Virus record (IMG/VR): IMGVR_UViG_3300032268_001435
Span: 1-54,644 of that record
From: a virus
Length of the DNA stretch: 54,644 bases
Reading direction: 5' to 3' (one strand)
Positions 8,420-54,470 of the stretch are shown here, piece after piece. A model generated the notes under the pieces. The model saw only the letters and a program-made list of their open reading frames with translations. It made no database searches and had not been told where the DNA came from. The stretch's first letter is position 1. The number at the start of each line of letters is the position of its first letter. The position numbers and the translations under genes were made by a program.

Positions 8420-9502
8420 ATGGACATCAAGACCTTCGAGAACATCGCCCCTAAGCTTCCCCCCGAGATCGCCGTCCTCATGCGCGGCCCCACCGGCGTC
8501 GGCAAGAGCCAGCTCGCGCGCTCGGTCGCCGAGAAGCTCCACCTCCCCTTCATCGACGTCCGCGGCAGCACGATGTCCGAGGGCGATGTGGGCGGCTACC
8601 CCGACGTCGAGGGCATGAAGAAGAACGGCATCATGACCTTCTGCATGCCGAGCTGGTTCATCCGCGCCTGCCGCGAGGCCTGCGTCGTCATGCTCGACGA
8701 GCTCAACCGCTCGCTCCCCGGCGTCCAGCAGAGCTTCTTCCAGCTGGTCCTCGACCGTGAGCTGGGCAACGACGAGGACGGCGTCCCCTACAAGCTCCAC
8801 CCCGGCAGCCGCGTCTTCGCTGCGGTGAACCATGGCTCGGAGTACGACGTCAACGACATGGACCCTGCGCTCCTCCGCCGCTTCTGGGTGGTCGACCTCG
8901 CGCCCACGCACGAGGACTTCATCACCTGGGCGAAGGAGACGGGACTGGACGCGCTCCTCATCGACTTCATCCGCCAGAACCCGGCCCACCTGCGCGTCGA
9001 CCCGGGCTCGGTGGAAGCGGGCACGGTCTGCCCGAACCCGGCCTCGTGGCACCGCCTCGACACGACGCTGGCCCACATGGAGCTCGCACCCACGAAGATC
9101 GCGGGCAACAAGCACCCCCTCGTCTACTCGATCGCGCAGGGGTTCGTGGGCACGGAGGCAGCCATCGCATTCTCGGAGTTCATCTCCAAGTACGAGATGG
9201 TGCTGAGCGCTGAGGACGTCCTGGACCGCTTCGATGCAGTGCAGGACCGTGTGAAGGCGAGCACGGCCTCGGGCCTCGCGTCGGTGATCGAGAAGGTGGC
9301 CGACCACTGCAAGTCCAACACGTGGACCGTTGACCAGGTGTCCGGCCTCGCGAGCTTCACGAGCGTCATCACCGGTGAGCTGCTGGTCCAGCTGTGGAAC
9401 GCGGTCTCGGCGACTGGAAACCTTCCCAACATCCAGAAGCTCCACAAGAAGATCGGGAAGCGGGTGGTCGAGGCTGTCAAGGCCGGCCGCGAGGTGGCGT
9501 GA
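8420..9502 (+). CDS. MoxR-type AAA+ ATPase, 360 aa
   Basis: AAA+ ATPase: Walker A GPTGVGKS (residues 23-30), Walker B CVVMLDELNR (about 90-100), a sensor-1 region FAAVNHGSEYDVNDMD with the arginine finger/sensor LLRRF after it, then a helical C-terminal lid. MoxR-type ATPases usually partner von Willebrand A proteins as chaperones that insert cofactors or remodel complexes. A metallopeptidase-VWA protein gene lies at 13125, making a likely pair. Highly GC-rich, with strong C/G third positions, so well adapted to a GC-rich host. Confidence 0.9.
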   Translation: MDIKTFENIAPKLPPEIAVLMRGPTGVGKSQLARSVAEKLHLPFIDVRGSTMSEGDVGGYPDVEGMKKNGIMTFCMPSWFIRACREACVVMLDELNRSLPGVQQSFFQLVLDRELGNDEDGVPYKLHPGSRVFAAVNHGSEYDVNDMDPALLRRFWVVDLAPTHEDFITWAKETGLDALLIDFIRQNPAHLRVDPGSVEAGTVCPNPASWHRLDTTLAHMELAPTKIAGNKHPLVYSIAQGFVGTEAAIAFSEFISKYEMVLSAEDVLDRFDAVQDRVKASTASGLASVIEKVADHCKSNTWTVDQVSGLASFTSVITGELLVQLWNAVSATGNLPNIQKLHKKIGKRVVEAVKAGREVA

Positions 9503-13124: not shown

Positions 13125-14531
13125 ATGGCAAAGAACACTTCCACATCGAACGATCTCCCCCAGGCCTCCAAGGAGGTCACCAAGGCGCAGGCTGACGCCT
13201 TCGACATCGATCCCCACCTCATCAACCTCATGTGGGATGAGCCCTTCTTCTCGAAGGTGCTCCGCCCCGTCACGAAGATTCGCTCGGAGGAAATCTCCAC
13301 GGCGGGCGTGCTCGCCAAGGACGGCGACATCAACATGTGGTGGAACCCCTACTTCCTCGCCGGCCTCACGTCCAAGCAGGTGAAGGGCCTCCTCAAGCAC
13401 GAGTGCTTCCACCTCGTTCTCGAGCACACCACCACCCGGCGCATGGAGCCCCACACGCTCCACAACTACGCGACGGACCTCGCCATCAACTCGATGATTC
13501 CGGAGGAGGAGCTCCCCGAGGGTGGTCTCATTCCGGGCAAGGCGTTCAAGCCGCTGGAGCCCGAGATCGCGGCGAAGATTGGTGAGGCTGCTGTCGCCCG
13601 CCACGAGCGAATCAGCCAGAAGATCGCGTCGCTGCCGAAGGGCCTCTCCTCCGAGCAGTACTTCGCGCTCCTCCAGGACGTGGCTGAGGACATCGAGAAG
13701 GCTGCCAAGGGCAAGAGCCTCGCACAGGCGCTGAAGGACGGCGACGTCCGCGTCGACGAAAACGGCAACCTGGTGGACGCAGACGGCAACCCTGTGCGCA
13801 TCGTCCCCGGTGGGATGGACGACCACGAGGGCTGGGATGAGATGGACGACGAGGAGCGGGAGCTCATCAAGGGCAAGGTGAAGCAGGCGCTGGAGCGTGC
13901 GGTCAAGGACTGTGACTCCTCGGGCCAGTGGGGCTCGATCCCCGCGGAGACCCGTCAGAAGCTTCGAGACCTCCTCAGCCGAGAGATCGACTGGAAGTCG
14001 GTCCTCAAGCAGTTCTGCGGTATGACCCGCCGCGCGGACCGCACCACCAACGTGAAGCGGCTCAATCGGAAGTATCCGGCGATCCAGCCTGGCACCCACC
14101 GGAACTACACGTCGTCGATCGCGGTCTACATCGACCAGTCGGGCTCCGTGGACGATGAGTCGCTGGAGCTCCTCTTCGGAAACCTGATGACGCTCGCGAA
14201 GCACACGGAGTTCACGATCTTCAACTTCGACACCGAGGTGGACGAGAAGTCGGAGCGCGTCTGGAAGGGGAACAAGAACCCGGGTCTCGCCCGGACGCGG
14301 TGCGGCGGGACGGACTTCAAGGCGGCCTCGGACCACGCCAACAAGAACAAGCACCGGTTCGATGGGTACATGATTTGCTCCGATGGAGAGTGCACAGATC
14401 CTGGACCTTCTCTTCTCAAGCGCTGTTGGATTATCGTCCCCGATCGAAAGATGCTCTTCAATCCCAGCAAGCGTGATGCTGTTGTCAAGATGAAGCGTAA
14501 CAAGGTGGTCGGCGTCTCAAGTTCTACCTAA
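13125..14531 (+). CDS. Metallopeptidase-VWA domain protein (DUF2201-like), 468 aa
   Basis: N-terminal putative metallopeptidase domain with HECFH (residues 92-96) in LLKHECFHLVLEH. Middle region rich in charge (DEERELIKGKVKQALERA). C-terminal VWA-like domain IAVYIDQSGSVDDE (D-x-S-G-S metal site, about residue 335) followed by FNFDTEV and ICSDGE. This layout matches the family that pairs with MoxR-type ATPases in bacteria. The AAA+ gene at 8420 is the natural partner, split from it here by the tRNA/HNH insertion zone. Probably leaderless. Confidence 0.88.
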   Translation: MAKNTSTSNDLPQASKEVTKAQADAFDIDPHLINLMWDEPFFSKVLRPVTKIRSEEISTAGVLAKDGDINMWWNPYFLAGLTSKQVKGLLKHECFHLVLEHTTTRRMEPHTLHNYATDLAINSMIPEEELPEGGLIPGKAFKPLEPEIAAKIGEAAVARHERISQKIASLPKGLSSEQYFALLQDVAEDIEKAAKGKSLAQALKDGDVRVDENGNLVDADGNPVRIVPGGMDDHEGWDEMDDEERELIKGKVKQALERAVKDCDSSGQWGSIPAETRQKLRDLLSREIDWKSVLKQFCGMTRRADRTTNVKRLNRKYPAIQPGTHRNYTSSIAVYIDQSGSVDDESLELLFGNLMTLAKHTEFTIFNFDTEVDEKSERVWKGNKNPGLARTRCGGTDFKAASDHANKNKHRFDGYMICSDGECTDPGPSLLKRCWIIVPDRKMLFNPSKRDAVVKMKRNKVVGVSSST

Positions 14532-39519: not shown

Positions 39520-39957
39520 ATGACTCGCATTTTTCCAATTCGCTGGTGGTCTGATTTAACAACCAATTCTCTTGATGAGTTTGACAGCATTTTTGACGCG
39601 CTCGTTGGCACAAGAGTTATCTCAAGAGACAGCTCACACACTGTTCCCAGAGCCAACGTTCAGCAACTTGAAGAAGGTTATGTTATTAAATTAGCTGCAC
39701 CTGGATTTTCTAAAAGTGATTTCAAGATACACACAGATGCAGAATGTCTGACAATTTCTGCTAAGTCTGAAACTGCTGAGTCTGATTCTCAATTCTCTTC
39801 TAGAGAATATGCTTATGATGAATTTACCAGATCCTGGAAACTTCCGACTTCTGTGAATGCTGCAGATCTCACTGCCAGGTATGAATCAGGTATTTTAAGT
39901 GTAATGCTTCCCACACACAAAAAAAAATCTGATCGATTTGAAATCAAAGTTGAATGA
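39520..39957 (+). CDS. Hsp20/alpha-crystallin small heat-shock protein, 145 aa
   Basis: Alpha-crystallin domain: PRANVQQLEEGYVIKLAAPGFSKSDFKI, EYAYDEFTRSWKLPTSVNAADLTARYESGILSVMLP (the A-x-x-x-x-G-[IV]-L motif as YESGILSVMLP), then the IxI-like tail FEIKVE. ATP-independent holdase that keeps proteins soluble. Hsp20 genes are common in T4-like cyanophages. AAGGAG precedes the ATG, and GTCCGA-T-TCGGAC (39484-39496) upstream may be an operator. Confidence 0.9.
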   Translation: MTRIFPIRWWSDLTTNSLDEFDSIFDALVGTRVISRDSSHTVPRANVQQLEEGYVIKLAAPGFSKSDFKIHTDAECLTISAKSETAESDSQFSSREYAYDEFTRSWKLPTSVNAADLTARYESGILSVMLPTHKKKSDRFEIKVE

Positions 39958-40427: not shown

Positions 40428-40707
40428 TTTAGAAATTCGTCTTCTACGGAGACTGATTCGTGAAGAGATAGGTCATAATTTCTCAACTCGTAATAATGAT
40501 CCCATACAGTATTATGAAACCGCACCTGTCGATGTTTCAATCTATCCTGTTGATACTGGATTTTACGTGGAAATAAAAGTTCCACAGGATGAGTCTCTTT
40601 CAACTTACACACATAGTTTTAAGACTAAGGATGAGGCAGAGCTCTTCGCCCGAAAATATGTTGACTTTGTAAAGAAGACGCTTGACCAAAAAGATCCCGC
40701 CTATTGA
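40420..40707 (+). CDS. Small protein with capsid-targeting-like N-terminus, 95 aa
   Basis: MSDLEIRLLRRLIREEIGHN carries the LRRLIREE helix with an I-R-E|E site. The body has strands (VDVSIYPVDTGFYVEIKVPQD) and a helix (EAELFARKYVDFVKKTL). Overlaps the previous gene's end; GAGGG precedes ATG 40420. Possible virion-internal protein. Confidence 0.65.
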   Translation: MSDLEIRLLRRLIREEIGHNFSTRNNDPIQYYETAPVDVSIYPVDTGFYVEIKVPQDESLSTYTHSFKTKDEAELFARKYVDFVKKTLDQKDPAY

Positions 40708-41519
40708 CTTTCAATTGTTCTTGAAATTCTTCTAATATCATCCAAAGAAGCTGATATTGCTATATTTTCAAAGTCTGTGAATGCTGAGTGTATCACGCCC
40801 ACAATTTCTCCGCTGTTGTTAAGAATTGCAGATCCTGAACTTCCTGGACCAGTGGGGATTGTATAGTAGCTCCTATTTCCAGAATCTCTGCCTACATATC
40901 GACCCTCAAAAATAGGGACCATTCTTGGTTCAAATATTCCTAATGGAGAGGCTACATTGTAAACAAGATCTCCCACTTCAGGGCCAATCGAAGAGATTGG
41001 AACTGGATTACCCCATATACCTGGAGTCACTACAATGCATATGTCATTGTCATCATCTGACGAGAACACACTTGTTAAATGTGTGTTTCCATAGTAATCA
41101 ACTGATGTCAATACTGATCTTTGCTCAATAGAGATCTCTGCAGCTCCTCGCAGCGTTGTAATTCTCATCGAGTAGTTTCTTCTATCTCGACACACATGTG
41201 CTGCAGTCAAAATAAATGTCATTTCTCTACTGTGCCTTATGATCATTCCAGATCCGTTTCCTGACATCGTGACAGGATTCATCGAATCTGTAAAATCTGT
41301 ACATGATGTATCAGGAGGTAGTGAAATACACCCAGTAGGAACCGACGACATATCAATGTCTAGCTTTACAAAAGATGTGTATCTCCACACTCTTCTATCA
41401 GAAATATGAGGTACAGATGATGGTGTGCATGATTCCATGAACAGAATAGGAATTATTAAAATCAAAGTCAATATAAGAATACTTGATGTCTTTGCTATCT
41501 CGGTAAAGACGTCTTTCAT
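40701..41519 (-). CDS. Membrane-anchored trypsin-like serine protease, 272 aa
   Basis: N-terminal membrane helix (ILILTLILIIPILFMESC), then a chymotrypsin-fold protease: FILTAAHVC (His), DDDNDICIVV (Asp) and TGPGSSGSAIL (Ser). Similar proteases occur in marine T4-like phages, substrates unknown. Convergent with gene 40420, overlapping by seven bases. A Cys after the helix lacks a proper lipobox. Confidence 0.85.
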   Translation of the reverse strand: MKDVFTEIAKTSSILILTLILIIPILFMESCTPSSVPHISDRRVWRYTSFVKLDIDMSSVPTGCISLPPDTSCTDFTDSMNPVTMSGNGSGMIIRHSREMTFILTAAHVCRDRRNYSMRITTLRGAAEISIEQRSVLTSVDYYGNTHLTSVFSSDDDNDICIVVTPGIWGNPVPISSIGPEVGDLVYNVASPLGIFEPRMVPIFEGRYVGRDSGNRSYYTIPTGPGSSGSAILNNSGEIVGVIHSAFTDFENIAISASLDDIRRISRTIESQ

Positions 41520-41582
41520 ATTTCTAAGTATGTTTACTTTTTACACCTTTGATGTGAAGTCGTATTCTATAGACTGAACATT

Positions 41583-42822: not shown

Positions 42823-42841
42823 AATTCACTATACATTTAAC

Positions 42842-42860
42842 AGATATACACTATAATAAT
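42842..42860 (+). promoter_or_regulatory. Possible tRNA-Gly promoter -10
   Basis: TATAAT at 42852-42857, nine bases before the tRNA; no GTGCAA element. Confidence 0.4.
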
Positions 42861-42865
42861 TTGGC

Positions 42866-42937
42866 GCGGCCATAGCTCAATGGTAGAGTCTCAGTTTTCC
42901 AAACTGATTGTTACGAGTTCGAGTCTCGTTGGCCGCT
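42866..42937 (+). tRNA. tRNA-Gly(TCC)
   Basis: Acceptor GCGGCCA/TGGCCGC, anticodon TCC in TCAGT-TTTCCAA-ACTGA, T-arm ACGAG-TTCGAGT-CTCGT. Isolated in the AT-rich half. Reads GGA, frequent there. Confidence 0.93.
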
Positions 42938-42961
42938 TTACTTTTTAAAAAAAGAGGTCAT

Positions 42962-43639
42962 GTGAGAACACAACGACGTTCTAGGAAGACACGATTCAAT
43001 GCAAATGGCGGAGGAAATTCTGACATGTCACCTGATCAAATGATGCACGTGATGGATGATCCTGATGGCCATCCTATGGGCATCCCTGGTCTGGACAAGG
43101 GTGTTGCTGTTGATGAGAATCGAGTGTACTTCTACGCTCATGTCACTGAGTCTAGTGTTCTTGATCTTAATAAGATCCTCCGTAGTCTAGACACTGAGAT
43201 GCAGTGTCTATCAATTCGATTTGGTCTCAAGAATTCTCCATTTCCAATTAGACTCCACATTCACTCAGGCGGCGGTGACCTATTTTCAGGTCTTGCCGCT
43301 GTTGACACTATTAGATCGCTGAAGACTGATGTTCACACCTACGTCGATGGATCTGCAGCATCAGCGGCGACGCTTATGAGCCTTGCAGGTGACAAGAGAT
43401 TTATTCACAAGAACTCACTTATGCTTATTCATCAGCTTTCAGCTATGATGGTTGAGGGAACTCATGAGCAGTTTAAGGATGAGTTTGAGAATCAGCAGCG
43501 TTTAATGAATCGAATTAAGACCCTGTATCGTGAGAAGGCTCGTATGTCTGATGAGGTTCTTGAGGATCTTCTCAGGCATGATCTCTGGTTGGACGCTGAT
43601 AAGTGTCTGGAATATGGGCTCGTTGACGAAGTGATTTGA
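42962..43639 (+). CDS. clpP: ClpP-like serine protease, 225 aa
   Basis: ClpP fold: LHIHSGGGDLFSGLAAVDTIRSL (oxyanion Gly loop), DGSAASAATLMSL with catalytic Ser about 134, LMLIHQL with catalytic His about 157, and DLWLDADKCLEYGLVDEVI at the end. Works with an unfoldase or on virion proteins. The N-terminal ~40 residues are basic and extra. GTG 42962 has AGAGG five bases ahead; the open frame runs back into tRNA-Gly, so that part is excluded. Confidence 0.88.
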   Translation: MRTQRRSRKTRFNANGGGNSDMSPDQMMHVMDDPDGHPMGIPGLDKGVAVDENRVYFYAHVTESSVLDLNKILRSLDTEMQCLSIRFGLKNSPFPIRLHIHSGGGDLFSGLAAVDTIRSLKTDVHTYVDGSAASAATLMSLAGDKRFIHKNSLMLIHQLSAMMVEGTHEQFKDEFENQQRLMNRIKTLYREKARMSDEVLEDLLRHDLWLDADKCLEYGLVDEVI

Positions 43640-43643
43640 AAGC

Positions 43644-44204
43644 ATGAATATCTTTGTGTTGGACTTGGATCCGCTCAAGGCGGCAGAGTACCATTGCAAT
43701 AAACATGTCGTAAAGATGATTCTGGAGAGTGCGCAGATGTTGTGCACTGCGCACTGGCTCTCCCTTCTTGATAGCAAATCTAAAAAAATTAATGACTTCA
43801 AGCGTGTAAGAGACTGTCAAGACTGGTTAAAGTCTAATACAGGCACTGCTCTACAGCCTCCGTGGAAGATGACACACATCAACCACCCATGCAGTATTTG
43901 GACTCGCGAGAGCCTTGAGAATTATAAGTGGCACTCTAGACTCGGTCTGGCTCTTTGTGATGAGTACACAAAGCGCTATGAAAAGGTGCACAAGTCTCTA
44001 GGAGTTCATCTGTGGCTTTCCGAGAACAAGCCACTGTTACCATCATTCTCTCTAACAGAGCATCCCAGATGCGTCCCAGATGACTGCAAAGCAGCATCAG
44101 AGGACGTAGTCACATCCTACAGACACTACTACAATCGCTACAAAAATCGGTTCGCCAAGTGGGAACCAAAGTCTCAGACTCCTAGCTGGTACACAGGAAA
44201 GTGA
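43644..44204 (+). CDS. Conserved phage protein of the HCxKHVVKM type, 186 aa
   Basis: MNIFVLDLDPLKAAEYHCNKHVVKMILESAQML, INHPCSIWTRES, SYRHYYNRYKNRFAKWEP: a family I recognise from many phages, with unassigned function. Conserved His, Cys and Lys suggest a metal- or nucleotide-binding enzyme. Five bases after the protease stop and GTGA overlap to the helicase gene, so a single unit. Confidence 0.75.
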   Translation: MNIFVLDLDPLKAAEYHCNKHVVKMILESAQMLCTAHWLSLLDSKSKKINDFKRVRDCQDWLKSNTGTALQPPWKMTHINHPCSIWTRESLENYKWHSRLGLALCDEYTKRYEKVHKSLGVHLWLSENKPLLPSFSLTEHPRCVPDDCKAASEDVVTSYRHYYNRYKNRFAKWEPKSQTPSWYTGK

Positions 44205-45841
44205 CACGAATGGAAGACTACAGTAAGTTCTTTCCCTACTCAAACATTAGAGATCAACAGAAGGAAGCAATTGACTTCTGCATCAAGAATCTCAATGAGG
44301 GAAAGCGTTTTATCATCATTGAGGCTGGGACTGGAGTTGGAAAGTCAGCAATTGGTCTGACAATTGCAAAGGCTTTTTGTGCTTTGAATTCTCCGAAGAG
44401 AGACGAAAAGACTGACACGACTTCTGAGGCTGGTGCGTGGTTTGTGACCACTCAGAAGATCCTACAGGATCAGTACACTCGTGACTTTCACAAGATTGGT
44501 CTGAGATCTATCAAGAGCTCGAGCAACTATCAGTGCAAGTTCAAGAAGCATAACACGTGTGCTGACAGCCAGAAGGAGCTGAAGGTCGAGGACAAGGGGT
44601 CCAAGTTTTGGAACTCCTGCATGGGTTACTGCACATACAAGAATGAAAAGCAGGAATTTCTTAAGTCCACGACTTCGGTGACAAATTTTCCCTACCTCCT
44701 TACGGAGTCTAACTACTCGGGAAAGATCACAAAGCGTCAATTGCTTGTAATTGATGAGTCACACAACACTGAAGGTGAACTGAGTAAGTTTATTGAGGTG
44801 ACAGTATCTGAGCGTTTTTGCACGACTGTCCTTAAAATAGACTTTGAGCGACCAAAGACGCAGCATCAGGCACACTTGTGGATTCGTGACATCTACCTTC
44901 CAAAGGTGAAGTCACACGTCGATCACGTTGAGTCTATGCTTGAGAAGTACAGTGGAATCAAGGCAAAGCTCAATGATTTTATTGCTCTCTCAAGACAGAT
45001 TGACCTCCTCAAGGGGCACAAGGAGAAGCTCACAAAGTTTATTGATGTGTACGACTCAGACAACTGGGTGTATGAGTTTGTTGAAGCAGACGGTAAGTCA
45101 ATGTGCAAGCTTTCTTTTAAGCCTATTGATGTCGCTCCTTTTGCGGAGAACATGATTTTTAGACTCGGAGAGCGTGTAATTCTCATGTCGGCAACCATCC
45201 TGAATCGGGATGCATTCTGTCAGTCACTTGGTATCAAGCCAGAAGACTCAGCATTTATCAATCTTCCATCTCCGTTTCCAGTTGAGAATCGCCCTATCTT
45301 CTTTTTTCCTGTGGGCAGTATGACTCAAAATGGAATTGATAATTCACTTCCTAAGCTTGTCGAGGCAATTAAAAGTATTATGACAGAGCATAAGAATGAA
45401 AAGGGCATCATCCATACGCACTCATACAAGATTGCTTCTTATATTAAAAAGCACATCAAGTCAAATCGTCTGCTGGTTCATGATGCGAACAATCGGGACG
45501 AGACATTAGAAAAGCACATGAAGTCTAAGGAGCCAACAATTCTCCTTTCACCATCTATGTCTGAGGGCGTTGATCTCAAGCAGGACATGTCACGATTTCA
45601 GGTCGTGTGCAAGGTTCCGTATCCATACCTCGGAGACAAGCTTGTTAGCAAGCGAATGCACAAGTGGAATTGGTGGTATCCACTGCAGACTGCAAAGACG
45701 ATCGTTCAAGCTGTCGGACGGTCAATTAGAAGCGCAGATGATCATGCTGTCACCTACATTCTAGACTCAAATTGGGAATCTTTCTACAAGAAAAGTCGTG
45801 ATATGTTTCCTCCTGATTTTCATATGTGTCTCAAGAAGTGA
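44201..45841 (+). CDS. DinG/XPD-like superfamily 2 helicase, 546 aa
   Basis: Walker A EAGTGVGKSA; four cysteines in YQCKFKKHNTCA...NSCMGYCTYKN, in place for an iron-sulfur cluster; DEAH-type box VIDESHN; motif V/VI SEGVDLKQDMSRF and QAVGRSIRSADDHAVTY. 5'-3' helicase for repair, R-loop or replication work. GTG 44201 overlaps the previous stop; ATG 44210 is an alternative. Confidence 0.9.
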   Translation: MTRMEDYSKFFPYSNIRDQQKEAIDFCIKNLNEGKRFIIIEAGTGVGKSAIGLTIAKAFCALNSPKRDEKTDTTSEAGAWFVTTQKILQDQYTRDFHKIGLRSIKSSSNYQCKFKKHNTCADSQKELKVEDKGSKFWNSCMGYCTYKNEKQEFLKSTTSVTNFPYLLTESNYSGKITKRQLLVIDESHNTEGELSKFIEVTVSERFCTTVLKIDFERPKTQHQAHLWIRDIYLPKVKSHVDHVESMLEKYSGIKAKLNDFIALSRQIDLLKGHKEKLTKFIDVYDSDNWVYEFVEADGKSMCKLSFKPIDVAPFAENMIFRLGERVILMSATILNRDAFCQSLGIKPEDSAFINLPSPFPVENRPIFFFPVGSMTQNGIDNSLPKLVEAIKSIMTEHKNEKGIIHTHSYKIASYIKKHIKSNRLLVHDANNRDETLEKHMKSKEPTILLSPSMSEGVDLKQDMSRFQVVCKVPYPYLGDKLVSKRMHKWNWWYPLQTAKTIVQAVGRSIRSADDHAVTYILDSNWESFYKKSRDMFPPDFHMCLKK

Positions 45842-45880
45842 TCAATACTTACAGACTGTTCATTTGAAGGATTCACGTAC

Positions 45881-46273
45881 ATGAGTTACAAAGACGGCGC
45901 AGGATTAATTGTTGTTAGAGACTTTTTTGACGGTCAAAAGTTTTTAATTCTTCTCAATTATGATGGAACATGGGACTTGCCAAAGGGTGGCATGGAGCCA
46001 AATGAATCATCTTTTGAATGTGCAATTCGTGAGACATTTGAAGAAGCTTCTATTGATGATCTTTCATTTGATTGGGGTGTTGATCCAATATCATCAGATA
46101 ATCTCTCTTTCTATATTGCAAGATCTCACCAAGATCCAGTAATTAAAATGAATCCTGTCTATGGAAATTATGAGCATATTCAGGGTGTTTGGGTGAGTCC
46201 AATTATTGCGGTTGAATTACTTCCAGATTTTTTAAAAACTTTTGCAGTCTCAGCAATTGATAGATTACAGTAG
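45881..46273 (+). CDS. Nudix hydrolase, 130 aa
   Basis: Nudix box G-G-M-E-P-N-E-S-S-F-E-C-A-I-R-E-T-F-E-E-A-S (G-x5-E-x7-R-E-x2-E-E) follows LPKGG. Hydrolyses nucleoside diphosphates linked to another group; substrate (dNTP, cap, ADP-ribose) unknown. GAAGGA precedes the ATG. Confidence 0.88.
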   Translation: MSYKDGAGLIVVRDFFDGQKFLILLNYDGTWDLPKGGMEPNESSFECAIRETFEEASIDDLSFDWGVDPISSDNLSFYIARSHQDPVIKMNPVYGNYEHIQGVWVSPIIAVELLPDFLKTFAVSAIDRLQ

Positions 46274-46338
46274 ACTATTGTATGATCTTTAGGTGATAAT
46301 AGTTTATCCCTGCAAATTGAGTGCCATATTTATTATGG

Positions 46339-47559
46339 AGTATGTCAATATTCAGGGAACACAAAACAATTGCTGATAGGTCTGCATCAGACCGTAGACG
46401 TCACAAGAAGAAGATTGAGGATGCCATCAAAGAGGGCATTCACAATATCGTCTCTGAAGAGTCTATAATCGGTCAGGACGGCAAGAAGAAGATCAACATC
46501 CCCGTCCGCGGTATCAAAGAGTACCGATTCATCTACGGAGACAATGATCAGAACAAAAGAGCTGGATCAGCTCCCGGCGAAGACCTTCAGAGAGGTCAAA
46601 AAGTAGGTGAAGCTGGATCCAAACAAAAAAGTAAAGGCGGTAAGGGAAGCGATGAAAAGGGAACTGAATTCTACGAAGTAGAAATCACCCTCGAAGAGCT
46701 TGCTAATTACCTCTTTAATGATCTAGAGCTTCCTGAGCTTGCCAAAAAGAGCATTAAAAATATAGTTGGCGAGAAGTGGAAGCGACACGGATATAGAAAT
46801 GACGGTATTCGTCCTCGTCTTGATAAGAAAAAGACGGCGATCAACAGGATCAAGCGAAAAAAGTCTGCCCTTAGAAGGGAAAATCTAGAATCGACTTCTG
46901 TGAATGAAGTTCAGACTTCCTCGGTTGAAGATGAGGAAGAGAGATTTCCATATCACGAAAATGATCTGAAGTATCGTCACATCAAGAAAGACGTGAAGGA
47001 GTCATCCAACGCAGTCATTTTCTTCCTGATGGACATTTCCGGATCAATGTCACAAAATAAGAAGTTTCTTGCAAGAAGCTTCTATTTTCTTCTCTATCAC
47101 TTCATTAATGCTCGGTATGAGAACTGTGAGGTCGTGTTCGTTGCACACGACACGGAAGCATATGAAGTTGATGAAGACAAATTCTTCAAGAGAGGAAATA
47201 GTGGTGGCACTGTAGTTTCTTCAGGTCTTCAAATGGTTCAGGATATCATCAACAAGAGATTCCACCCAAACAGCTGGAACATATATTGCTTTCAGTGCAG
47301 CGATGGAGACAATTGGGAGAGTGATGAGAAGAAGACACTTGATCTCGCTTCCTCAATCAAGAGTGTGAGTCAGCTCTTCGGATACTGTCAAATTGAGCCT
47401 AAGGAAGAAAAACTCTCTTGGGATCCTGATAAGAAGCTAAATCAGGTTTATTTGCCTCTTGTTGACAACAACTTTAAAACCGTTGATATTTCTTCAAAGG
47501 GTGATATTTGGCCCGCCTTTAGAAAGCTGCTCGGAAAGAGAGTGCAGGTAAATAGATGA
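46339..47559 (+). CDS. yeaH: YeaH/YhbH-like DUF444 protein with VWA domain, 406 aa
   Basis: DUF444 family: N-terminal RSASDRRRHKKKIEDAIKEGI, a Gly-rich linker, then VIFFLMDISGSMSQNKKFLARSFYFLL (VWA, D-x-S-G-S), DTEAYEVDEDKFFKRGNSGGTVVSSGL, WNIYCFQCSDGDNW, as in E. coli YeaH and Bacillus YhbH.  First of the three-gene stress cassette. ATG 46339 fits the family start; GTG 46321 is in frame. ATGA overlap with SpoVR. Confidence 0.92.
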   Translation, partial: SMSIFREHKTIADRSASDRRRHKKKIEDAIKEGIHNIVSEESIIGQDGKKKINIPVRGIKEYRFIYGDNDQNKRAGSAPGEDLQRGQKVGEAGSKQKSKGGKGSDEKGTEFYEVEITLEELANYLFNDLELPELAKKSIKNIVGEKWKRHGYRNDGIRPRLDKKKTAINRIKRKKSALRRENLESTSVNEVQTSSVEDEEERFPYHENDLKYRHIKKDVKESSNAVIFFLMDISGSMSQNKKFLARSFYFLLYHFINARYENCEVVFVAHDTEAYEVDEDKFFKRGNSGGTVVSSGLQMVQDIINKRFHPNSWNIYCFQCSDGDNWESDEKKTLDLASSIKSVSQLFGYCQIEPKEEKLSWDPDKKLNQVYLPLVDNNFKTVDISSKGDIWPAFRKLLGKRVQVNR

Positions 47560-48878
47560 CACATTTTGATTCCAGTGATGAATGGTCAACGGATCTCCTC
47601 TCTGAGTATGATGAGAGGATTTGTGAGCTAGCTAAGTCAGAAGGTCTTGACTGGTTTCCTATCCACTATGAAGTTTGCGACTACTACTCCATGATCGGTC
47701 ATATGTCGTATCATGGGATGCCCACACACTACGGTCACTGGAGTTTTGGAAAGAGCTTTGAGAGAACCCACCAGATGTACAATCTTGGAATGGAGGGATT
47801 GCCTTATGAGCTCATTATTAATTCAAATCCATCCATAGCATATCTGATGAAGGAGAACCCTGCGTACCTTCAGATTCTCATTATGTGTCATTGTGTGGGT
47901 CACTCAGACTTCTTCAAGAACAATAGAATGTTTAGGGACACTAGACCCGAGTCTGTTGTACAGAGATTTAGAAATGCAAAAAAGAGAATTCAAGGATACA
48001 CAGAGGATCCTCACATTGGAATTGATGAGGTTGAAAAGGTCCTTGATGCTGCACACGCGATTCAGTTTCAGGCAGATAGATTTCCTATTATTAAGCCTAC
48101 ACACAAGGACTTAAAAGATAAGTACATAAAGCTTATAAACGAGGACACGAAGGGCGATTGGAAGAAATTTGATATTACAAAAATTCCACTTGAGCCACAG
48201 TACGATGTTCTTGGATTTATTTCTGAGTACGGTAAATTTGATGACTGGAAGCGAGACATCATTGATATTGTCAGAGATGAAGCAAACTATTTCATGCCTC
48301 AGATTCATACAAAAATTATGAATGAGGGATGGGCAAGTTTCTGGCACTATCGATTAATGAATAAGTTAGAGCTTCCTCAGAAGTACCACATTCCTTTCCT
48401 CAAAAGTCACAACCAAGTCATACGTCCTCATGTAGGTGGTCTGAATCCCTACCACCTTGGATTTGAGATCTTTAAAAAAATCGAAGAGCGTCACGGAATT
48501 GACGAGTGTTTTATTGCACGTGAAACTGCACATGATATAAGCTTTTTACGTCAATACCTAAAAGAGGAAGATGCTTTTGATCTGGGACTTTTTACATTCT
48601 CACGTCAAAAGGACGATTATAAAATTGATGAGATTTCTGATGAGGATGGATGGAAAGAAGTGAAAAACACTCTTATCAAGAATATTGGGATGAGTGGAAT
48701 TCCATCAATTCATATTTCAGAACTCACAAAAGATGATGTTCTAGTTCTGGAACACGATCATGATGGTCGAGATCTAGAACTAAATAATGCTGATGAGGTC
48801 ATCTCACACGTTCATGAGCTATGGGGTGGCGAGGTAAAAATGTTCACTATTGTCGAGGGAGAATCCTGGGAAATTTAA
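47556..48878 (+). CDS. spoVR: SpoVR/YcgB family protein, 440 aa
   Basis: Family signatures: EVCDYYSMIGHMSYHGMPTHYGHW, YNLGMEGLPYELIINSNPSIAYLM, CHCVGHSDFFKNN, and EGWASFWHYRLMNKL. SpoVR is needed for the spore cortex in Bacillus; YcgB in E. coli is stationary-phase induced; biochemistry unsettled. Together with DUF444 and PrkA it forms a conserved bacterial trio, here complete in a phage context. Overlaps the preceding gene (ATGA). Confidence 0.93.
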   Translation: MTHFDSSDEWSTDLLSEYDERICELAKSEGLDWFPIHYEVCDYYSMIGHMSYHGMPTHYGHWSFGKSFERTHQMYNLGMEGLPYELIINSNPSIAYLMKENPAYLQILIMCHCVGHSDFFKNNRMFRDTRPESVVQRFRNAKKRIQGYTEDPHIGIDEVEKVLDAAHAIQFQADRFPIIKPTHKDLKDKYIKLINEDTKGDWKKFDITKIPLEPQYDVLGFISEYGKFDDWKRDIIDIVRDEANYFMPQIHTKIMNEGWASFWHYRLMNKLELPQKYHIPFLKSHNQVIRPHVGGLNPYHLGFEIFKKIEERHGIDECFIARETAHDISFLRQYLKEEDAFDLGLFTFSRQKDDYKIDEISDEDGWKEVKNTLIKNIGMSGIPSIHISELTKDDVLVLEHDHDGRDLELNNADEVISHVHELWGGEVKMFTIVEGESWEI

Positions 48879-48920
48879 CAGATTCTCTGCTCAGATATCT
48901 TTACAAAACGGCGGTATTAC

Positions 48921-50855
48921 ATGAAGTCATCAAAGAAGAAGTTCCTAGATCTTATTCAGACACAGCGAGACATCAAGAAGACTGAGAAGTTCGAGGGAAC
49001 TCTCATCGACTACATGGAGGTTGTCAAGCAAAATCCAGACATCACAAAGACAGCTCACAAGAGACTTTGTGATTCCATTGAAAGTAAGGGCGTATCAGTA
49101 ATGCCTGATACTGACTCAAGAAAGCATAGAATTTTTGATGGTGAAAATATCAAAATCTATGACTACTTTCAGAAGGATTTCTTTGGCGCTGAAAGAACTG
49201 TTGCCAAGTTAATGAGATTCTTAAAGTCTGCTGCACACAAGGGAGAGGAATCACGTCAGGTTCTCCTCCTTATGGGCCCAGTTGGCGCTGGAAAGTCAGC
49301 TCTAACAGAGCACATCAAGAGGGCAATTGAGCAGCTTCCATATTTCCACCTCGATGGTGACCCACAGCGTGGTGAGCCACTTCAGCTTGTTCCCCGTGCC
49401 CTTCGTCCAGACTTCGAGAAGGAGCTTGGCGTCACAATTGAAGGTGATATCAGCCCAGTTGCACGCCAGAAGCTGCTTGCGGAGTATGATGGAAAGTACG
49501 AGAATTTCAAGGTTGTTGAGACGACATTCTCCCAGCGTGGACGCCGAGGCGTCGCTTCTGTGCCTCCCATGGATGCAAACAGCCAAGATGTTTCAGTCCT
49601 GATTGGCTCTGAGGACATCTCCAAGCTTGATATCTACGCAGAGGACGATCCACGAGTTCTATCACTCAATGGTGCCTTCAACGTGGGTAACCGTGGTATC
49701 GTTGAGCTCGTTGAGGTGTTCAAGAATGAAATTGAGTTCCTCCACACGATCATCACAGCCACCCAGGAGAAGAGGGTTCCCTCACCTGGCAAGCATGATA
49801 TGATCTATTTCGACGGCGTGATCCTCGCCCACTGTAACGAGTCCGAGTGGAACCGTTTCCAGTCCGAGCACACCAACGAGGCAATTCTTGATCGTCTTGT
49901 GAAGATCAATGTTCCCTACGTTCTAGAGCTAGATCAGGAGGTCAAGATCTACGAGAAGATCCTTGGAAAGGCAAACTTCTCAGCTCATATCGCTCCGCAC
50001 ACACTTAAGGTGGCATCCATGTTTTCAGTGATGTCACGCCTAAAGCCAACGAGCAAGTGTGATCTTCTTACAAAGATGAAGATCTACAATGGAGAGGAGG
50101 TGATTGAGAAGGGACGTGTAAAGAAGGTTGACATTAGAGACCTCCGTGAGGAGGCTCAAAATGAGGGCATGAGTGGTATATCCACCAGGTTTATCATGAA
50201 GTCGATTGACAATGCTCTTACAGATGCAGATAAGAATGTTATTACTCCTATCTCAGTCATGGACTCACTTGTCAAGCAGGTTAAGGAACAAATTGTTGAT
50301 CAGGAGTACAAGGACAAGTGCCTTGAACTTATTCAAAAGGTTGTCCGTGAGGAGTACCTCAAGATCCTCGAGACAGAGATTGCCAAGGCATTCATTGCAG
50401 CATATGAGGAGCAGGCACAGTCACTATTCGATGCTTATCTTGATAATGCTGAGGCTCATGCAACTCGTCAGCGTCTTAAGAACAAGATCACGAAGGAGGA
50501 GATGAATCCTGATGAGAACTTTATGAAGTCCATCGAAGAGATGATTGGCATCACAGGATCATCACGTGATGGATTTCGATCAGACGTCACAGCATATATG
50601 TTCGCAAGAATGCGCCGAGGTGAGAAGGTTGACTACACTTCGTACGAGCCTCTCAAGGAAGCAATTGAGAGTTATCTAATCAGGTCTGTCAAGGACATGG
50701 CGAGAATTGTGACCAAGTCCAAGACACGAGATGATGAACAGAAGAAGAAGTACAACGAGATGGTTCAGACTCTCATGAATGACTACGGATACAACGAGGA
50801 TTCAGCAGAGGAGATTTTGAATTATGCCAGCAATCACCTCTGGAGAGATAGTTGA
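48921..50855 (+). CDS. yeaG: PrkA/YeaG family AAA+ protein (serine kinase or protease type), 644 aa
   Basis: LLLMGPVGAGKSALTEHIKRAIE with Walker A (119-126), a long AAA-like domain (YFDGVILAHCNESEW, ISTRFIMKSIDNAL), and a C-terminal kinase-like region, about the length of bacterial YeaG. PrkA was described as a protein kinase and more recently as an AAA+ protease-like protein; in E. coli YeaG aids nutrient-stress survival. Third gene of the cassette, after a 42-base gap with CGGCGG. Less AT-rich than its neighbours. Confidence 0.93.
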   Translation: MKSSKKKFLDLIQTQRDIKKTEKFEGTLIDYMEVVKQNPDITKTAHKRLCDSIESKGVSVMPDTDSRKHRIFDGENIKIYDYFQKDFFGAERTVAKLMRFLKSAAHKGEESRQVLLLMGPVGAGKSALTEHIKRAIEQLPYFHLDGDPQRGEPLQLVPRALRPDFEKELGVTIEGDISPVARQKLLAEYDGKYENFKVVETTFSQRGRRGVASVPPMDANSQDVSVLIGSEDISKLDIYAEDDPRVLSLNGAFNVGNRGIVELVEVFKNEIEFLHTIITATQEKRVPSPGKHDMIYFDGVILAHCNESEWNRFQSEHTNEAILDRLVKINVPYVLELDQEVKIYEKILGKANFSAHIAPHTLKVASMFSVMSRLKPTSKCDLLTKMKIYNGEEVIEKGRVKKVDIRDLREEAQNEGMSGISTRFIMKSIDNALTDADKNVITPISVMDSLVKQVKEQIVDQEYKDKCLELIQKVVREEYLKILETEIAKAFIAAYEEQAQSLFDAYLDNAEAHATRQRLKNKITKEEMNPDENFMKSIEEMIGITGSSRDGFRSDVTAYMFARMRRGEKVDYTSYEPLKEAIESYLIRSVKDMARIVTKSKTRDDEQKKKYNEMVQTLMNDYGYNEDSAEEILNYASNHLWRDS

Positions 50856-51124
50856 TGCAAGTGAAGTTTTCTTCACCTGAGATCATCTTTTTAATTTCTG
50901 GCGCGCTATTTCTATCAGATAAAACCATTCCAGGCATTGTTTTTGCTGTGCTTGGAGTGGTTGGTTCTGTCGCTAGAGTTGCATTAGAGATGCAAGATCG
51001 ACAAGAGAGAATTAAATTAGATCAGGAAGAGATCAAGGTCGTCTATAGCGTCCTTTCATCTGTATCAAAAATATTTAGTAACATTACTGTCCAACACTAC
51101 GGAGATTCAACTGATTATAATTGA
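50855..51124 (+). CDS. Small membrane protein, 89 aa
   Basis: Starts in the PrkA stop (TGATG; GGAG nine bases ahead). Two hydrophobic stretches (IIFLISGALFLS, IPGIVFAVLGVVGSVARVAL) then a charged helix RQERIKLDQEEIKVV. Function unknown; may anchor a cassette product. Confidence 0.65.
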   Translation: MQVKFSSPEIIFLISGALFLSDKTIPGIVFAVLGVVGSVARVALEMQDRQERIKLDQEEIKVVYSVLSSVSKIFSNITVQHYGDSTDYN

Positions 51125-51135
51125 TTTCGTAGAAG

Positions 51136-52521
51136 ATGACTGTAAGAACTATCAAAAAAAAATCAATCGATTTAAATCTCAGACAGCTCACAGAAAATAT
51201 CCAAAAAAAATTGGATGATTTGGTGAGTCAAAGACACCACTTTAGTTTTGGCAACAGAACGTCTCAGGTGCAGCCCATCGATGTAGTTCGATGGGCCTCT
51301 GAAATGACTTCTGTTTCGTCCGAGTCAAAGCACCTAAAGAATATCATTCTAAGCGCTTTGAATGACGCAGAAGGCACCCAGGGAACTTCTGCAGTGGTCT
51401 GCTTGATAGCCCTTAGCCACTTATTGAGGCGTCCAGGCAGTCTATGGTCGACTAAAAATTCTGAAAGCATTGAAAATGAGCTGAAGGTCCTTTTAAAGCG
51501 TCACACACGACGTTGCTCATCTTCTGAGGTTCTTCAAATACTCAGCAATTTTGATCGTGATCCTAGCTCTTTTGGAATAGCAAATCGAGCTATTAGAATG
51601 AGCGGAGCAAATTCTACAATTCAAGTTGCATCTGATGGCTTTAGATCGAGCATCCAAATTGCGAATGGCTATAAGTTTCCTGTTGAATTTCCAGATATTT
51701 TTCTCTCTTCAGGTGGAGTCACTGTATCAGAGAAAAATTTTGAAGAATGCAGAGTTATGGCTATTGATGGAATTATTGAGAGCATGTCAGAGATAAATGG
51801 AATTGTTCATACATCTTATGACAAAAATATTCCAGTCATAATTGCCGCCCGTGGATTTGATAAAGATGTTCTCAACACTCTAGGAATAAATTTTTATCAT
51901 AGTAGACTTCGTGTGATTCCTTTGATTGTTCCTTATGATGCCACTGGTGCCAATATGATAAATGACATCTGTGTGGTTTCTGGATGTGACCTAATAAGCT
52001 CACTTAAGGGAGACCTTATATCAACCAAGAAGTGGGAAGAGCTAGGAACAGTCCAAAGTATCAAAATTACATTTGATAGATCGAATATCGTTCTAATGAA
52101 TGATAGAACTCGAAAGTCTGTTGAACGTCATCGAAAAAATCTTCGAAAAATGAAGATAGAGTCAATGGAACCCCTAAAGAGTGAGATAATAGAGAAACGT
52201 CTTACGACTCTCATGGGATCAGGAACGATTGTCAATCTAGGTGACGATCTAGAAGATCTAAAAGGCCTCTACACTGATAGGGTTAATTGTCATATTAGAA
52301 GTTTTAAGTCAGGTGCAAAATTTGGTATAGTTGATCTTTCTGAGCTATTAGAACAAGTTCAGTCTCCTGATCTCAGGAAGATAATTTTATCACTAAAAAA
52401 TGTATCTCAATTTTTTCTTACAAGTCAATTAATGTCTGGAATAAAGCATGCAACTTCTTGTGAGAAAAATTTAAGAAGCATCGGAGGAATGATTTGTAAT
52501 GACAATTCAAGAAGTCTCTGA
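51136..52521 (+). CDS. Diverged GroEL-like chaperonin, 461 aa
   Basis: The GroEL order is visible though far diverged. Equatorial: DAEGTQGTSAVVCLIAL in place of GDGTTTATVLA. Apical: DGFRSSIQIANGYKFPVE, IFLSSGGVTVSEKNFEEC, IPVIIAARGFDKDVLNTL, RVIPLIVPYDATGANMINDICVVSG, then ELGTVQSIKITFDRSNIVLMND as in ...LGQAKRVVINKDTTTIIDG. C-terminal return: RVNCHIRSFKSGAKFGIVDLSEL. At 461 residues it is shorter than GroEL (~550). Phage-encoded GroEL-like proteins are known in some jumbo phages. ATP site residues are altered, so ATPase activity is uncertain. Confidence 0.7.
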   Translation: MTVRTIKKKSIDLNLRQLTENIQKKLDDLVSQRHHFSFGNRTSQVQPIDVVRWASEMTSVSSESKHLKNIILSALNDAEGTQGTSAVVCLIALSHLLRRPGSLWSTKNSESIENELKVLLKRHTRRCSSSEVLQILSNFDRDPSSFGIANRAIRMSGANSTIQVASDGFRSSIQIANGYKFPVEFPDIFLSSGGVTVSEKNFEECRVMAIDGIIESMSEINGIVHTSYDKNIPVIIAARGFDKDVLNTLGINFYHSRLRVIPLIVPYDATGANMINDICVVSGCDLISSLKGDLISTKKWEELGTVQSIKITFDRSNIVLMNDRTRKSVERHRKNLRKMKIESMEPLKSEIIEKRLTTLMGSGTIVNLGDDLEDLKGLYTDRVNCHIRSFKSGAKFGIVDLSELLEQVQSPDLRKIILSLKNVSQFFLTSQLMSGIKHATSCEKNLRSIGGMICNDNSRSL

Positions 52522-52999
52522 GCTCGTTGAGGATTATACAGAAAGCTGGAATGTGCCGGTTTCTGGAGATCAAGTTGACATCAACTACATTGTTAAAAAA
52601 ATTAAGTCCAACAGCAACTACACAGTTCATGTAGGCACTGATTCACATAGACCAAAAGGTGGTGTCAGCCACAATTTTGCTACTGTGATATGCCTTTATG
52701 AGCAGGGAAAGGGTGCTGATTATTATTTTAGAAGAACCACAAGAAACTTTCATTACAAGAATTTAAAACAGCGAATGATGGAAGAAGTGTCACAGTCCAT
52801 AGACGTCAGCATAGAACTGATGAAATACATTCCAAACAATCGAATTGTTGTTCATGCCGATGTCAATTCAGATGATAGGTTTCCAACCTTTACTGTGCTC
52901 AATCAGATAAGATCGTGGGTTTCTTCTATGGGATTTAATTTTAGATGCAAGCCCGATGCTTGGGCATCATCCGGTGTTGCTGATAAGCACGCAAAGTGA
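52499..52999 (+). CDS. YkuK-like (DUF458) RNase H-fold protein, 166 aa
   Basis: VHVGTDSHRPKGGVSHNFATVI (RNase H-like D-S), RIVVHADVNSDDRF (D), CKPDAWASSGVADKHAK at the end match the YkuK/DUF458 family, a predicted nuclease fold. Its start overlaps the chaperonin end by 23 bases. Substrate unknown. Confidence 0.8.
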   Translation: MTIQEVSELVEDYTESWNVPVSGDQVDINYIVKKIKSNSNYTVHVGTDSHRPKGGVSHNFATVICLYEQGKGADYYFRRTTRNFHYKNLKQRMMEEVSQSIDVSIELMKYIPNNRIVVHADVNSDDRFPTFTVLNQIRSWVSSMGFNFRCKPDAWASSGVADKHAK

Positions 53000-53081
53000 A
53001 TTTGTATTTTACACCACCTAAGACTAGATATAAAAATGCTTAACAGTCGTACACTAAAGACGATTATAAGTAGAGGATTAA

Positions 53082-53291
53082 ATGAGTTTAGAAACAAGAG
53101 TGGGTAGAGCTGTTTTAGATCTTAGCGATATTGTGAAGACAAATGTCGTAAGTGCTGTTGCAAGAGCACGCACTGAGGGTAAGCTTACTCTTTCTGATAA
53201 GGACCTCACTGTTACTGCAAATATCATCACAAGTGCTATTGATGCAACTATGCGTGATGGTGTTGATATGCTCATACGTCTTGTAAAGTGA
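53082..53291 (+). CDS. Small helical protein, 69 aa
   Basis: All-helical: TRVGRAVLDLSDIVKTNVVSAV, LTVTANIITSAIDATMRDGVDML. AGAGGATTA precedes the ATG, with TATAAAAA and TTATAAG upstream (53030-53070) recalling T4 late promoters. Function unknown. Confidence 0.65.
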   Translation: MSLETRVGRAVLDLSDIVKTNVVSAVARARTEGKLTLSDKDLTVTANIITSAIDATMRDGVDMLIRLVK

Positions 53292-53298
53292 TGTCTCA

Positions 53299-53763
53299 AT
53301 GAGGACATGTCAAAAGCACCTAATTCAGTGCCACTGCATGCTTCCTCAATACAGGAAGATGAAGAATCCTGTATTTCATAAGTTTACAGTTTTTTCAATT
53401 CTTGAAAATGACACGGTTGTTCCAAAATATGTACAGTGTAATAACTGTAATGTTATTCATAAGGTTTTCGATCTCTGTCGATCTGAGATCATACCCGGTA
53501 AGGATGAACTTAGGTCAGTTGTAACAACAGATGAATTGAAATTTTTTATCCCTTCTGACTTGAGAAATTTATTAGAGCTTTATAAGTGTGACTTGCCTGT
53601 CTGGGAACACATCAAGTTTACTCTTGATGAGAAACACTGGGGAGCGCAAATAATTTTAACTCGTGAAGTTATTGATGGAGAAATTGTAGGAAAAATTCTT
53701 ACAATTGAAGAAAAAGACAGGTTTGCTCTAGAAAATTACATAAGTAGAGAGGTTTTTGAGTGA
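53299..53763 (+). CDS. Conserved zinc-finger-like phage protein, 154 aa
   Basis: CQKHLIQCHCMLPQYRK, PVFHKFTVFSIL, YVQCNNCNVIHKVFD: three Cys/His clusters suggest one or two zinc sites. The order HLIQCHC...PxFHKF...QCNNC...H matches a family I know from T4-like marine phages, function unknown. Followed by an overlapping gene. Confidence 0.75.
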   Translation: MRTCQKHLIQCHCMLPQYRKMKNPVFHKFTVFSILENDTVVPKYVQCNNCNVIHKVFDLCRSEIIPGKDELRSVVTTDELKFFIPSDLRNLLELYKCDLPVWEHIKFTLDEKHWGAQIILTREVIDGEIVGKILTIEEKDRFALENYISREVFE

Positions 53764-54014
53764 TGGATGAAAAGAAGCTAAAACTATCAAATGAGTTTTC
53801 TGAAAAGAAAATTTCAGATGAGGATGCAGTTAATTTTTTTCTAGCTCGTCAGATTTCACAAGAAATTCAAAAATTTGGTGTGAGTCAGATGACCATGCTT
53901 AAAATTATAGAATTGCTTGCTCTTGAATTAGAAGATAGAAATAAGATGTTATCAATAGTCGGTGCCGTCAAAGGAAGAAATGAGACTTCTACGTCACCAA
54001 TATTGAGTGAGTAA
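53763..54014 (+). CDS. Small helical protein, 83 aa
   Basis: Starts on the previous stop (TGATG). Helical: DAVNFFLARQISQEIQKFGVS, QMTMLKIIELLALELEDRNKML. No family recognised. Confidence 0.65.
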   Translation: MDEKKLKLSNEFSEKKISDEDAVNFFLARQISQEIQKFGVSQMTMLKIIELLALELEDRNKMLSIVGAVKGRNETSTSPILSE

Positions 54015-54031
54015 TAATAAGGAGAAGTAGT

Positions 54032-54229
54032 ATGAGTGCAACAGTACTTGATAAGTGGAAGGAGCTCAAGCTCATTGTCGATAGCATTGATCTTGATGTT
54101 CATAAGAACGCAGGCGGAAATGCTTCAGCAGGAGTTAGAGCAAGAAAGGGGCTTAGAAGCCTTAAGACTGCAGCCGCTGAGCTTGTTAAGCTTACAATTG
54201 ATACTGAGAAGACTGAAAAGCCTGAGTGA
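54032..54229 (+). CDS. Histone H1-like (Hc1 type) protein, 65 aa
   Basis: WKELKLIVDSIDLDVHKNAGGNASAGVRARKGLRSLKTAAAELVKLTI has the Hc1 pattern: two helices around G-N-x-x-A-G-x-R-A-R-K-x-L-x-x-L-K. Hc1-type proteins compact DNA in Chlamydia; small relatives occur in phages. AAGGAGAAG precedes the ATG. Charge is mixed, less basic than true H1. Confidence 0.6.
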   Translation: MSATVLDKWKELKLIVDSIDLDVHKNAGGNASAGVRARKGLRSLKTAAAELVKLTIDTEKTEKPE

Positions 54230-54365
54230 TTCTCGGTATCCACGATATTTTAGACAGAGTAAGAAGACTTTAGATTTAAAATCTCTTACTCTGATCTTGC
54301 ATAAGTGGAATAATATTTTGAAATGGTTGCCCCGATTGTATCGGGTGGATCCTGATTCTGCATAA

Positions 54366-54459
54366 GGATGGTTGGTGAAATTTGCAGATTGGTTGATAGT
54401 TAGAGAAACTATTTAATTGTGAATAATTTCGATCATGGGTTTAATTCCCATCGCATCCA
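54366..54459 (+). tRNA. tRNA-Leu-like (anticodon GAG?), divergent
   Basis: Acceptor GGATG/CATCC (last two pairs mismatched), Leu-like D-arm (TGGTGAAATTTGCAGA), anticodon arm ATAGT-TAGAGAA-ACTAT, a class II variable arm AATT...AATT, and T-arm ATGGG-TTTAATT-CCCAT. The loop would place A rather than U at position 33 and TTTAATT for the T-loop, so function is uncertain. Confidence 0.5.
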
Positions 54460-54470
54460 GGTGTAAAAAT

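Follow-up and report, generated by a model that had tools for sequence, protein, structure and literature searches.

The 54,644-base virus record IMGVR_UViG_3300032268_001435, analysed over its full length and referred to here as the window, carries three adjacent genes on one strand for a DUF444/YeaH protein, a SpoVR/YcgB protein and a PrkA/YeaG AAA+ protein, and comparative analyses revealed that this trio is intact, inherited together and held under selection in a lineage of jumbo phages known from environmental sequencing. We propose, with a probability of roughly 55%, that the three products form one phage-owned protein-remodelling machine of AAA+ and metal-ion-dependent adhesion site (MIDAS) type, with SpoVR as the third partner, which resides in a chaperone- and protease-rich block and was acquired once.

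The trio in the window consists of real, intact and consecutive genes, all on the plus strand and in the same arrangement as in relatives. The DUF444 gene (46342..47559; 405 amino acids, with a C-terminal von Willebrand A (VWA) domain of MIDAS type) matches PF04285 with 388.9 bits over nearly its full length, the SpoVR gene (47556..48878; 440 amino acids) matches PF04293 with 399.1 bits and the SpoVR_C family PF24755 with 38.7 bits, and the PrkA gene (48921..50855; 644 amino acids) matches AAA_PrkA PF08298 with 456.7 bits (residues 27-380) and the C-terminal domain PF06798 with 272.3 bits (383-635), both far over the Pfam cut-off. The three reading frames are free of stops and frameshifts, in agreement with an earlier sequence-only reading of the window, which had described all three members as present, intact and consecutive. 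Its description of the genes as overlapping holds for the junction between DUF444 and SpoVR, where 4 nucleotides are shared (47556-47559), and fails for that between SpoVR and PrkA, which lie 42 nucleotides apart; in addition, the DUF444 start that it placed at 46339 is better assigned to the ATG at 46342, behind a GGAG at 46337-46340. The decay in relatives that it had named as grounds for doubt was not found, as 80 relatives keep the trio and the median ratio of nonsynonymous to synonymous substitution rates (dN/dS) between close pairs is 0.033 for PrkA, 0.040 for SpoVR and 0.039 for DUF444. A chance occurrence is excluded by the bit scores taken together with the retention in 80 relatives and these dN/dS values of ~0.03-0.04. 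In a single contig (L407:12087-13271, the contig also being L339), DUF444 appears to be split over two adjacent frames, which may reflect decay or a sequencing error.

The window covers part of the genome of a jumbo phage and is not bacterial, since it is colinear with a virus contig of 288,697 bases (G001, the record behind L003) in which genes for a major head protein (phrog_138, E 1e-71), a head maturation protease (phrog_207, E 2e-51) and a large terminase of T4 type were identified. Homologues of proteins from both halves of the window are present in this relative: the two records share 61% identity in their MoxR-like ATPase and DUF2201 proteins, and the helicase, Nudix hydrolase, trio, Hsp20, trypsin-like protease, GroEL-like protein and zinc-ribbon protein occur in matching order within ~21 kb of G001. 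A terminase match was obtained in all 11 long trio-bearing records tested, over the curated cut-off in 10, and the terminase of the group is ~41% identical to those of Flavobacterium phage immuto and Microcystis phage Mel-JY01, which places these viruses among T4-superfamily jumbo phages without a close isolate. Bacterial contamination is thus ruled out by the colinearity with G001 and the terminase in relatives, and the assignment of the trio to a phage genome stands. The guanine-cytosine (GC) content of the window is ~60% in much of the left part (1-36000) and ~41% in the right part (36000-54644), with a step near 35 kb, and that of the colinear G001 is 34-40% throughout; a real shift or a join of two related phages are candidate causes of the step. 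A chimeric window is not supported by the step, as homologues from both of its sides lie within ~21 kb in one relative. A 306-kb jumbo-phage contig (L092, NHDW01000006.1) is filed in a Methylococcaceae metagenome assembly (TMED69), and its terminase match identifies it as a phage binned with bacteria.

A PrkA of the window's type was detected by one scan in at least 155 viral contigs, and the counts over 80 loci given here refer to the best 80 of these at least 155 contigs, with PrkAs 68-78% identical to that of the window. The same trio was recovered in the 80 contigs examined, always in the order DUF444-SpoVR-PrkA where the contig reaches far enough; DUF444 was observed in 76 of the 80 loci and SpoVR in 79, and in the loci without DUF444 or SpoVR (L019, L021, L022 and L023) the contig ends right there. 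For retention, the neighbouring helicase and zinc-ribbon protein served as the start of the search, which avoids selection by PrkA, and a carriage test based on the large terminase subunit (TerL) was dropped as uninformative in favour of this approach, since the contigs scored as negative stop at about the distance from TerL at which the trio would be expected. Of 17 long contigs (160-369 kb), 8 carried both PrkA and SpoVR and 9 carried neither, DUF444 was present in 15 of 15 trio contigs and in none of 7 trio-less ones (22 contigs checked), and the all-or-none pattern holds for 22 of 22 long contigs. The trio is therefore not universal, with trio-less large genomes of up to 369 kb; as contigs may be incomplete, absence from a single contig is weak evidence and it is the overall pattern that counts. 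On the helicase tree (51 scored rows: 44 with and 7 without the trio), the distribution of the trio requires one change. In addition, protein distances of the trio genes track those of the helicase (r 0.61, 0.73 and 0.63; 0 of 2000 permutations as high) and one another (r 0.76-0.83). A single gain or loss, on one branch of the family, was thus followed by retention, which suggests that these phages need the machine for some task.

The key motifs are kept, as the sequence-only reading had held. In PrkA, for which a solved relative was identified (9xip, E 7e-94), the P-loop residues G119, P120, G122, K125 and S126 and other AAA+ positions are invariant across 16 sequences. In DUF444 (residue numbers counted from 46339), the MIDAS-type residues D232, S234 and S236 are invariant in 46 sequences, as are T291 and D322, and the predicted model matches VWA domains, the best being Rea1-MIDAS (6qtb, E 2.6e-7). 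In SpoVR, H112, H116, E257, H264 and H285 are invariant in 45 sequences. The predicted SpoVR model (predicted local distance difference test score, pLDDT, of 91) gave zero fold matches in the Protein Data Bank (PDB) at E<=0.001, and a solved sequence relative was looked for and none was found. The conserved site of SpoVR reads HCVGH (H112, H116) and departs from the zincin HExxH, its first histidine having no glutamate after it; a known metallopeptidase fold was rejected, since the PDB gives no match. The invariant residues (HxxxH ... NEGWxxxxH) suggest a metal-type site. Inteins are often located at catalytic sites, and the SpoVR of L035 (L035:3261-5801) is interrupted in frame by an intein-like insert (CVTGDTLIDTPEG...FINHN) that follows immediately on the conserved NEGWA motif, a position which hints that this motif is functionally important.

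In the mechanism that we favour, the trio would probably be expressed as an operon, PrkA would be the AAA+ motor, DUF444 would act as a MIDAS (VWA) co-chaperone that hands clients to PrkA, as in MoxR-VWA and Rea1 systems, and SpoVR would be an obligate third partner which, through its putative metal-type site, would act on the client or gate it. The machine would have been gained once, long ago, from bacteria with PrkA of the clostridial/deltaproteobacterial type, placed in a chaperone- and protease-rich block of the phage genome and then held under strong selection. This proposal is drawn from the all-or-none presence, the single gain or loss, the distances that track the helicase, the low dN/dS and the invariant residues, as well as from the best match of the DUF444 model (the MIDAS domain of Rea1, an AAA+ machine), the GroEL-like gene that adjoins the trio in most loci, the Hsp20 and the ClpP-type and trypsin-type proteases nearby in the window, and the intein that interrupts SpoVR inside the NEGWA region in L035. 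Two observations on cellular systems also count for it: in Escherichia coli, loss of yeaG, of yeaH or of both leads to the same recovery phenotype (PMC4664914), and haloarchaeal genomes keep the three families together too (PMC3102087). In Bacillus anthracis, PrkA is required for sporulation (PMC13001217). Several points weigh against the proposal. For purified B. anthracis PrkA, the kinase and protease activities measured were negligible, and AAA-driven remodelling was not shown (PMC13001217); contact between the phage proteins and their activity are predictions; catalysis by SpoVR is a guess, because the HExxH glutamate is missing and the fold is without a PDB match; and the upstream motif that supports an operon, described below, is present in only a minority of loci. 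As for the client, we regard structural proteins of the phage and regulators or complexes of a slowly growing host as about equally likely candidates. A stronger version, which we put forward as doubtful, is that in a jumbo-phage lineage common worldwide the trio is now a core machine specific to phages, which serves a dedicated client in their life cycle and is no longer a copy of a host stress system; such clients might be, for example, a late assembly or disassembly step, or a host complex dismantled in slow-growing cells.

A promoter-like motif of putative function, TATTTATTA (46327..46335, plus strand), lies just upstream of the trio. Of 69 distinct loci, 16 have the pattern TA[CT]TTAT <=50 nucleotides upstream of DUF444, compared with 3.6 expected from shuffling, which is modest evidence, given that this is a minority of loci and that the motif was spotted in the same upstream regions that were later counted. 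Upstream of SpoVR it was found in 0 of 70. The longer form TAYTTATNA has 3 matches in the window against 0.7 expected, and in G001 TA[CT]TTAT is positioned 25-35 nucleotides upstream of several genes, including those for head-tail adaptor-like and baseplate wedge proteins. TA[CT]TTAT may be a late promoter. The T4 late promoter TATAAATA is not enriched upstream of the trio.

The PrkA tree (73 rows, unrooted) placed the phages of the window's type in one clade (Shimodaira-Hasegawa-like approximate likelihood ratio test, SH-aLRT, 100), joined (98) to the PrkAs of Clostridia, Deltaproteobacteria and a few others, which are 53-62% identical to that of the window. These clostridial and deltaproteobacterial kin have the order PrkA-DUF444-SpoVR, and PrkA does not come first in the window or its phage relatives; the phage order is therefore permuted relative to that of the nearest bacterial relatives. 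Some thermophilic Bacillota also place PrkA last. Since the tree is unrooted, the direction of transfer for the window's family is an inference. A recent capture of the trio from a host is rejected by the separate phage clade. Elsewhere in the tree, the PrkAs of three huge phages fall inside the E. coli type (100), that of LR756511 groups with the Planctomycete/Myxococcota type (100, long branch), and those of Thermus phages group with a Sulfobacillus row (89, long branches). A single origin shared by the window's family and the huge phages of E. coli type was rejected by the approximately unbiased (AU) test (p-AU 1.5e-146), as was one shared with the Thermus phages (p-AU 0.0006). As both constraints were rejected, these tree tests indicate that phages acquired PrkA at least three times, and probably four.

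An alternative that we regard as possible, although tentative, is control of the host state, in which the trio would copy or override the host YeaG-YeaH-YcgB system so that nutrient-limited cells stay phage-productive, as the sequence-only reading had suggested for starving hosts, or recover well. In nitrogen-starved E. coli, yeaG and yeaH act upstream of rpoS and of toxin-antitoxin modules (PMC4664914), spoVR outnumbers all other sporulation-type viral genes in an oxygen-minimum zone, where it was read as a means of host persistence (PMC8940887), and the taking of PrkA by phages from several bacterial lineages would be expected if a widespread host pathway were targeted. However, the gene order and sequence are unlike those of known bacterial systems, so host mimicry is not evident, and the promoter-like motif points at least as much to phage functions, as do the neighbours; the chaperonin, Hsp20 and proteases, the motif and the packaging and head context in Thermus phages fit a general remodelling or late-phase role at least as well as a role in starvation. 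It has also to be considered, as a slightly less likely alternative, that the trio is a late machine for virion assembly or maturation, with the structural proteins of the phage as the substrates that it folds, processes or takes apart. Such a role in assembly was proposed by Iyer et al. for the MoxR-VWA-metallopeptidase pair of jumbo phages (PMC7824862), a pair that the window phage has; the trio lies between the portal/minor head and TerL genes in Thermus phage Lalka8 and close to TerL in phiYS40, and the motif found before DUF444 recurs in G001 ahead of head-tail adaptor-like and baseplate genes. On the other hand, the trio is mostly 62-100 kb from TerL in the window's lineage and adjoins replication and nucleotide genes in MN1, sister jumbo phages assemble without it, and the motif is confined to a minority of loci. 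That the trio is an assembly artefact, with bacterial DNA wrongly joined into a viral contig, or a passenger gained transiently and without function, is highly improbable: the GC step would allow it and host carry-over does occur, as in Enterobacter phage LAU1, but the window is colinear with the 289-kb phage on both sides of that step, the same trio and order recur in the 80 contigs, dN/dS is very low, and every long trio contig tested has a terminase match. In LAU1 (L091), a YeaG 97.7% and a YeaH 93% identical to those of E. coli are located at the end of the record and are most likely host flanking DNA.

Compared with known systems, the remodelling machine proposed here resembles the bacterial YeaG-YeaH-YcgB cluster in its three adjacent families, its retained key residues and a PrkA ~53-62% identical, and differs from the clostridial-deltaproteobacterial type of that cluster in its order, DUF444-SpoVR-PrkA instead of PrkA-DUF444-SpoVR, and in its own PrkA clade. 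The Thermus phages phiYS40, TMA, MN1 and Lalka, which belong to the Caudoviricetes, share the order of the window, but their PrkAs are 29-34% identical to the window's and phiYS40 has an extra gene before PrkA. The huge phages LR745206, LR756502, LR756504 and LR756511 have all three families like the window and, unlike it, the bacterial gene order where the genes are adjacent; PrkA is of the E. coli type in the first three (62-65% identical to YeaG) and of the Planctomycete/Myxococcota type in LR756511. In Ralstonia jumbo phage RsoM2USA, which the searched phage collection left out, SpoVR (ORF28) and PrkA (ORF30) are near each other, and its authors place SpoVR in cell-cycle functions (PMC8504454). 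The jumbo-phage MoxR-VWA pair, present in the window and relatives, likewise comprises an AAA+ ATPase, a VWA co-chaperone and a metal-type peptidase part. In the window its genes are separate from the trio and encode a second AAA+ ATPase (MoxR-like, AAA_5; 8420..9502, plus strand, PF07728, 58.4 bits), with a homologue 61.6% identical at ~283 kb in G001, and its partner, a DUF2201 metallopeptidase and VWA-like protein (13125..14531, plus strand, PF13203, 65.2 bits, and PF09967, 26.4 bits), with a homologue 61% identical at ~281 kb. The trio also pairs an AAA+ protein with a VWA protein, yet PrkA is not MoxR: the pair belongs to another AAA+ clade and other families, and its metal-type function is fused to the VWA part, whereas SpoVR is separate in the trio. 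As most long trio contigs and some trio-less ones carry the DUF2201 protein, the trio is an addition to the MoxR-VWA pair; substitution was rejected, since most long trio contigs carry both. The PHROG label of HNH endonuclease for 13125-14531 looks wrong in view of the Pfam assignment.

The sequence-only reading was right that no role of the trio in phages is established, and its mere presence had been recorded already: the genes are annotated in phiYS40 (YS40_056/057/059) and in MN1, two of them are known from RsoM2USA, spoVR was recorded in oxygen-minimum-zone viromes (PMC8940887), and PHROGs hold families for all three genes, without function. The main text of the huge-phage paper does not mention SpoVR. 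In the open-licence papers searched, no report of a lineage-wide, permuted, all-or-none trio was found, which does not prove novelty; judged from these papers, the trio's abundance, its single origin, its permuted order and the strictness with which it is retained look unreported. Although PrkA-DUF444-SpoVR occurs widely among bacteria and haloarchaea, its biochemical function has not been settled, and the claims of kinase or protease activity are disputed even for Bacillus PrkA (PMC13001217). Phages with the trio beside trio-less sisters offer a natural experiment, together with small versions for purification and the finding of clients. Spore formers are not the main hosts in the waters that mostly yield these phages, which would cast doubt on the common reading of viral spoVR as a sporulation gene. 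In addition, the trio genes are frequent enough in viral metagenomes to affect the counting of auxiliary metabolic genes.

The usual neighbourhood consists of the helicase, Nudix hydrolase, trio, GroEL-like chaperonin, sometimes an RNase H-like protein, and then the zinc-ribbon protein. All but one of the neighbours given here are on the plus strand. Upstream in the window are the phage helicase (44201..45841; phrog_2488, 391.7 bits), a conserved neighbour used here as a phage core-gene marker, and the Nudix hydrolase (45881..46273; PF00293, 37.7 bits; 28 of 80 loci). Downstream are a short divergent GroEL-like chaperonin (51136..52521; phrog_5725, E 2e-16; 60 kDa chaperonin 5da8, E 3e-12), found in 55 of 80 loci and mostly downstream of the trio, and the RNase H-like protein (52499..52999; PF04308, 100 bits; 17 of 80 loci, often downstream). 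These are followed by the Cys/His-rich zinc-ribbon-like protein (53299..53763), a conserved downstream neighbour in 54 of 80 loci, which gave no match in the Pfam search and has C11, C13, C47, C50, H54 and C60 invariant in ten sequences; it is present in >100 viral contigs, adjoining the trio or the helicase. Relatives (G001-G041) encode a full-length GroEL of ~540 amino acids, and in many of them a further GroEL-like protein, short and divergent, is encoded close to the trio or the helicase. Farther upstream in the window are a ClpP-fold protease of the phage head-maturation type (42908..43639; phrog_94, E 2.5e-42; PF00574), a trypsin-like protease on the minus strand (40701..41519; PF13365, 48.8 bits), which stands upstream of the block and occurs in 38 of 80 loci, and the small heat-shock protein Hsp20 (39520..39957; phrog_432, E 1e-18). 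The window further encodes a SET-domain protein (42067-42822; PF00856, 44.7 bits) and a 1151-amino-acid protein (31651-35106), possibly an adhesin, with weak similarity to the PilY1 beta-propeller below the Pfam cut-off. Ten tRNA genes are located in 9535-16295 and an eleventh at 42866-42937.

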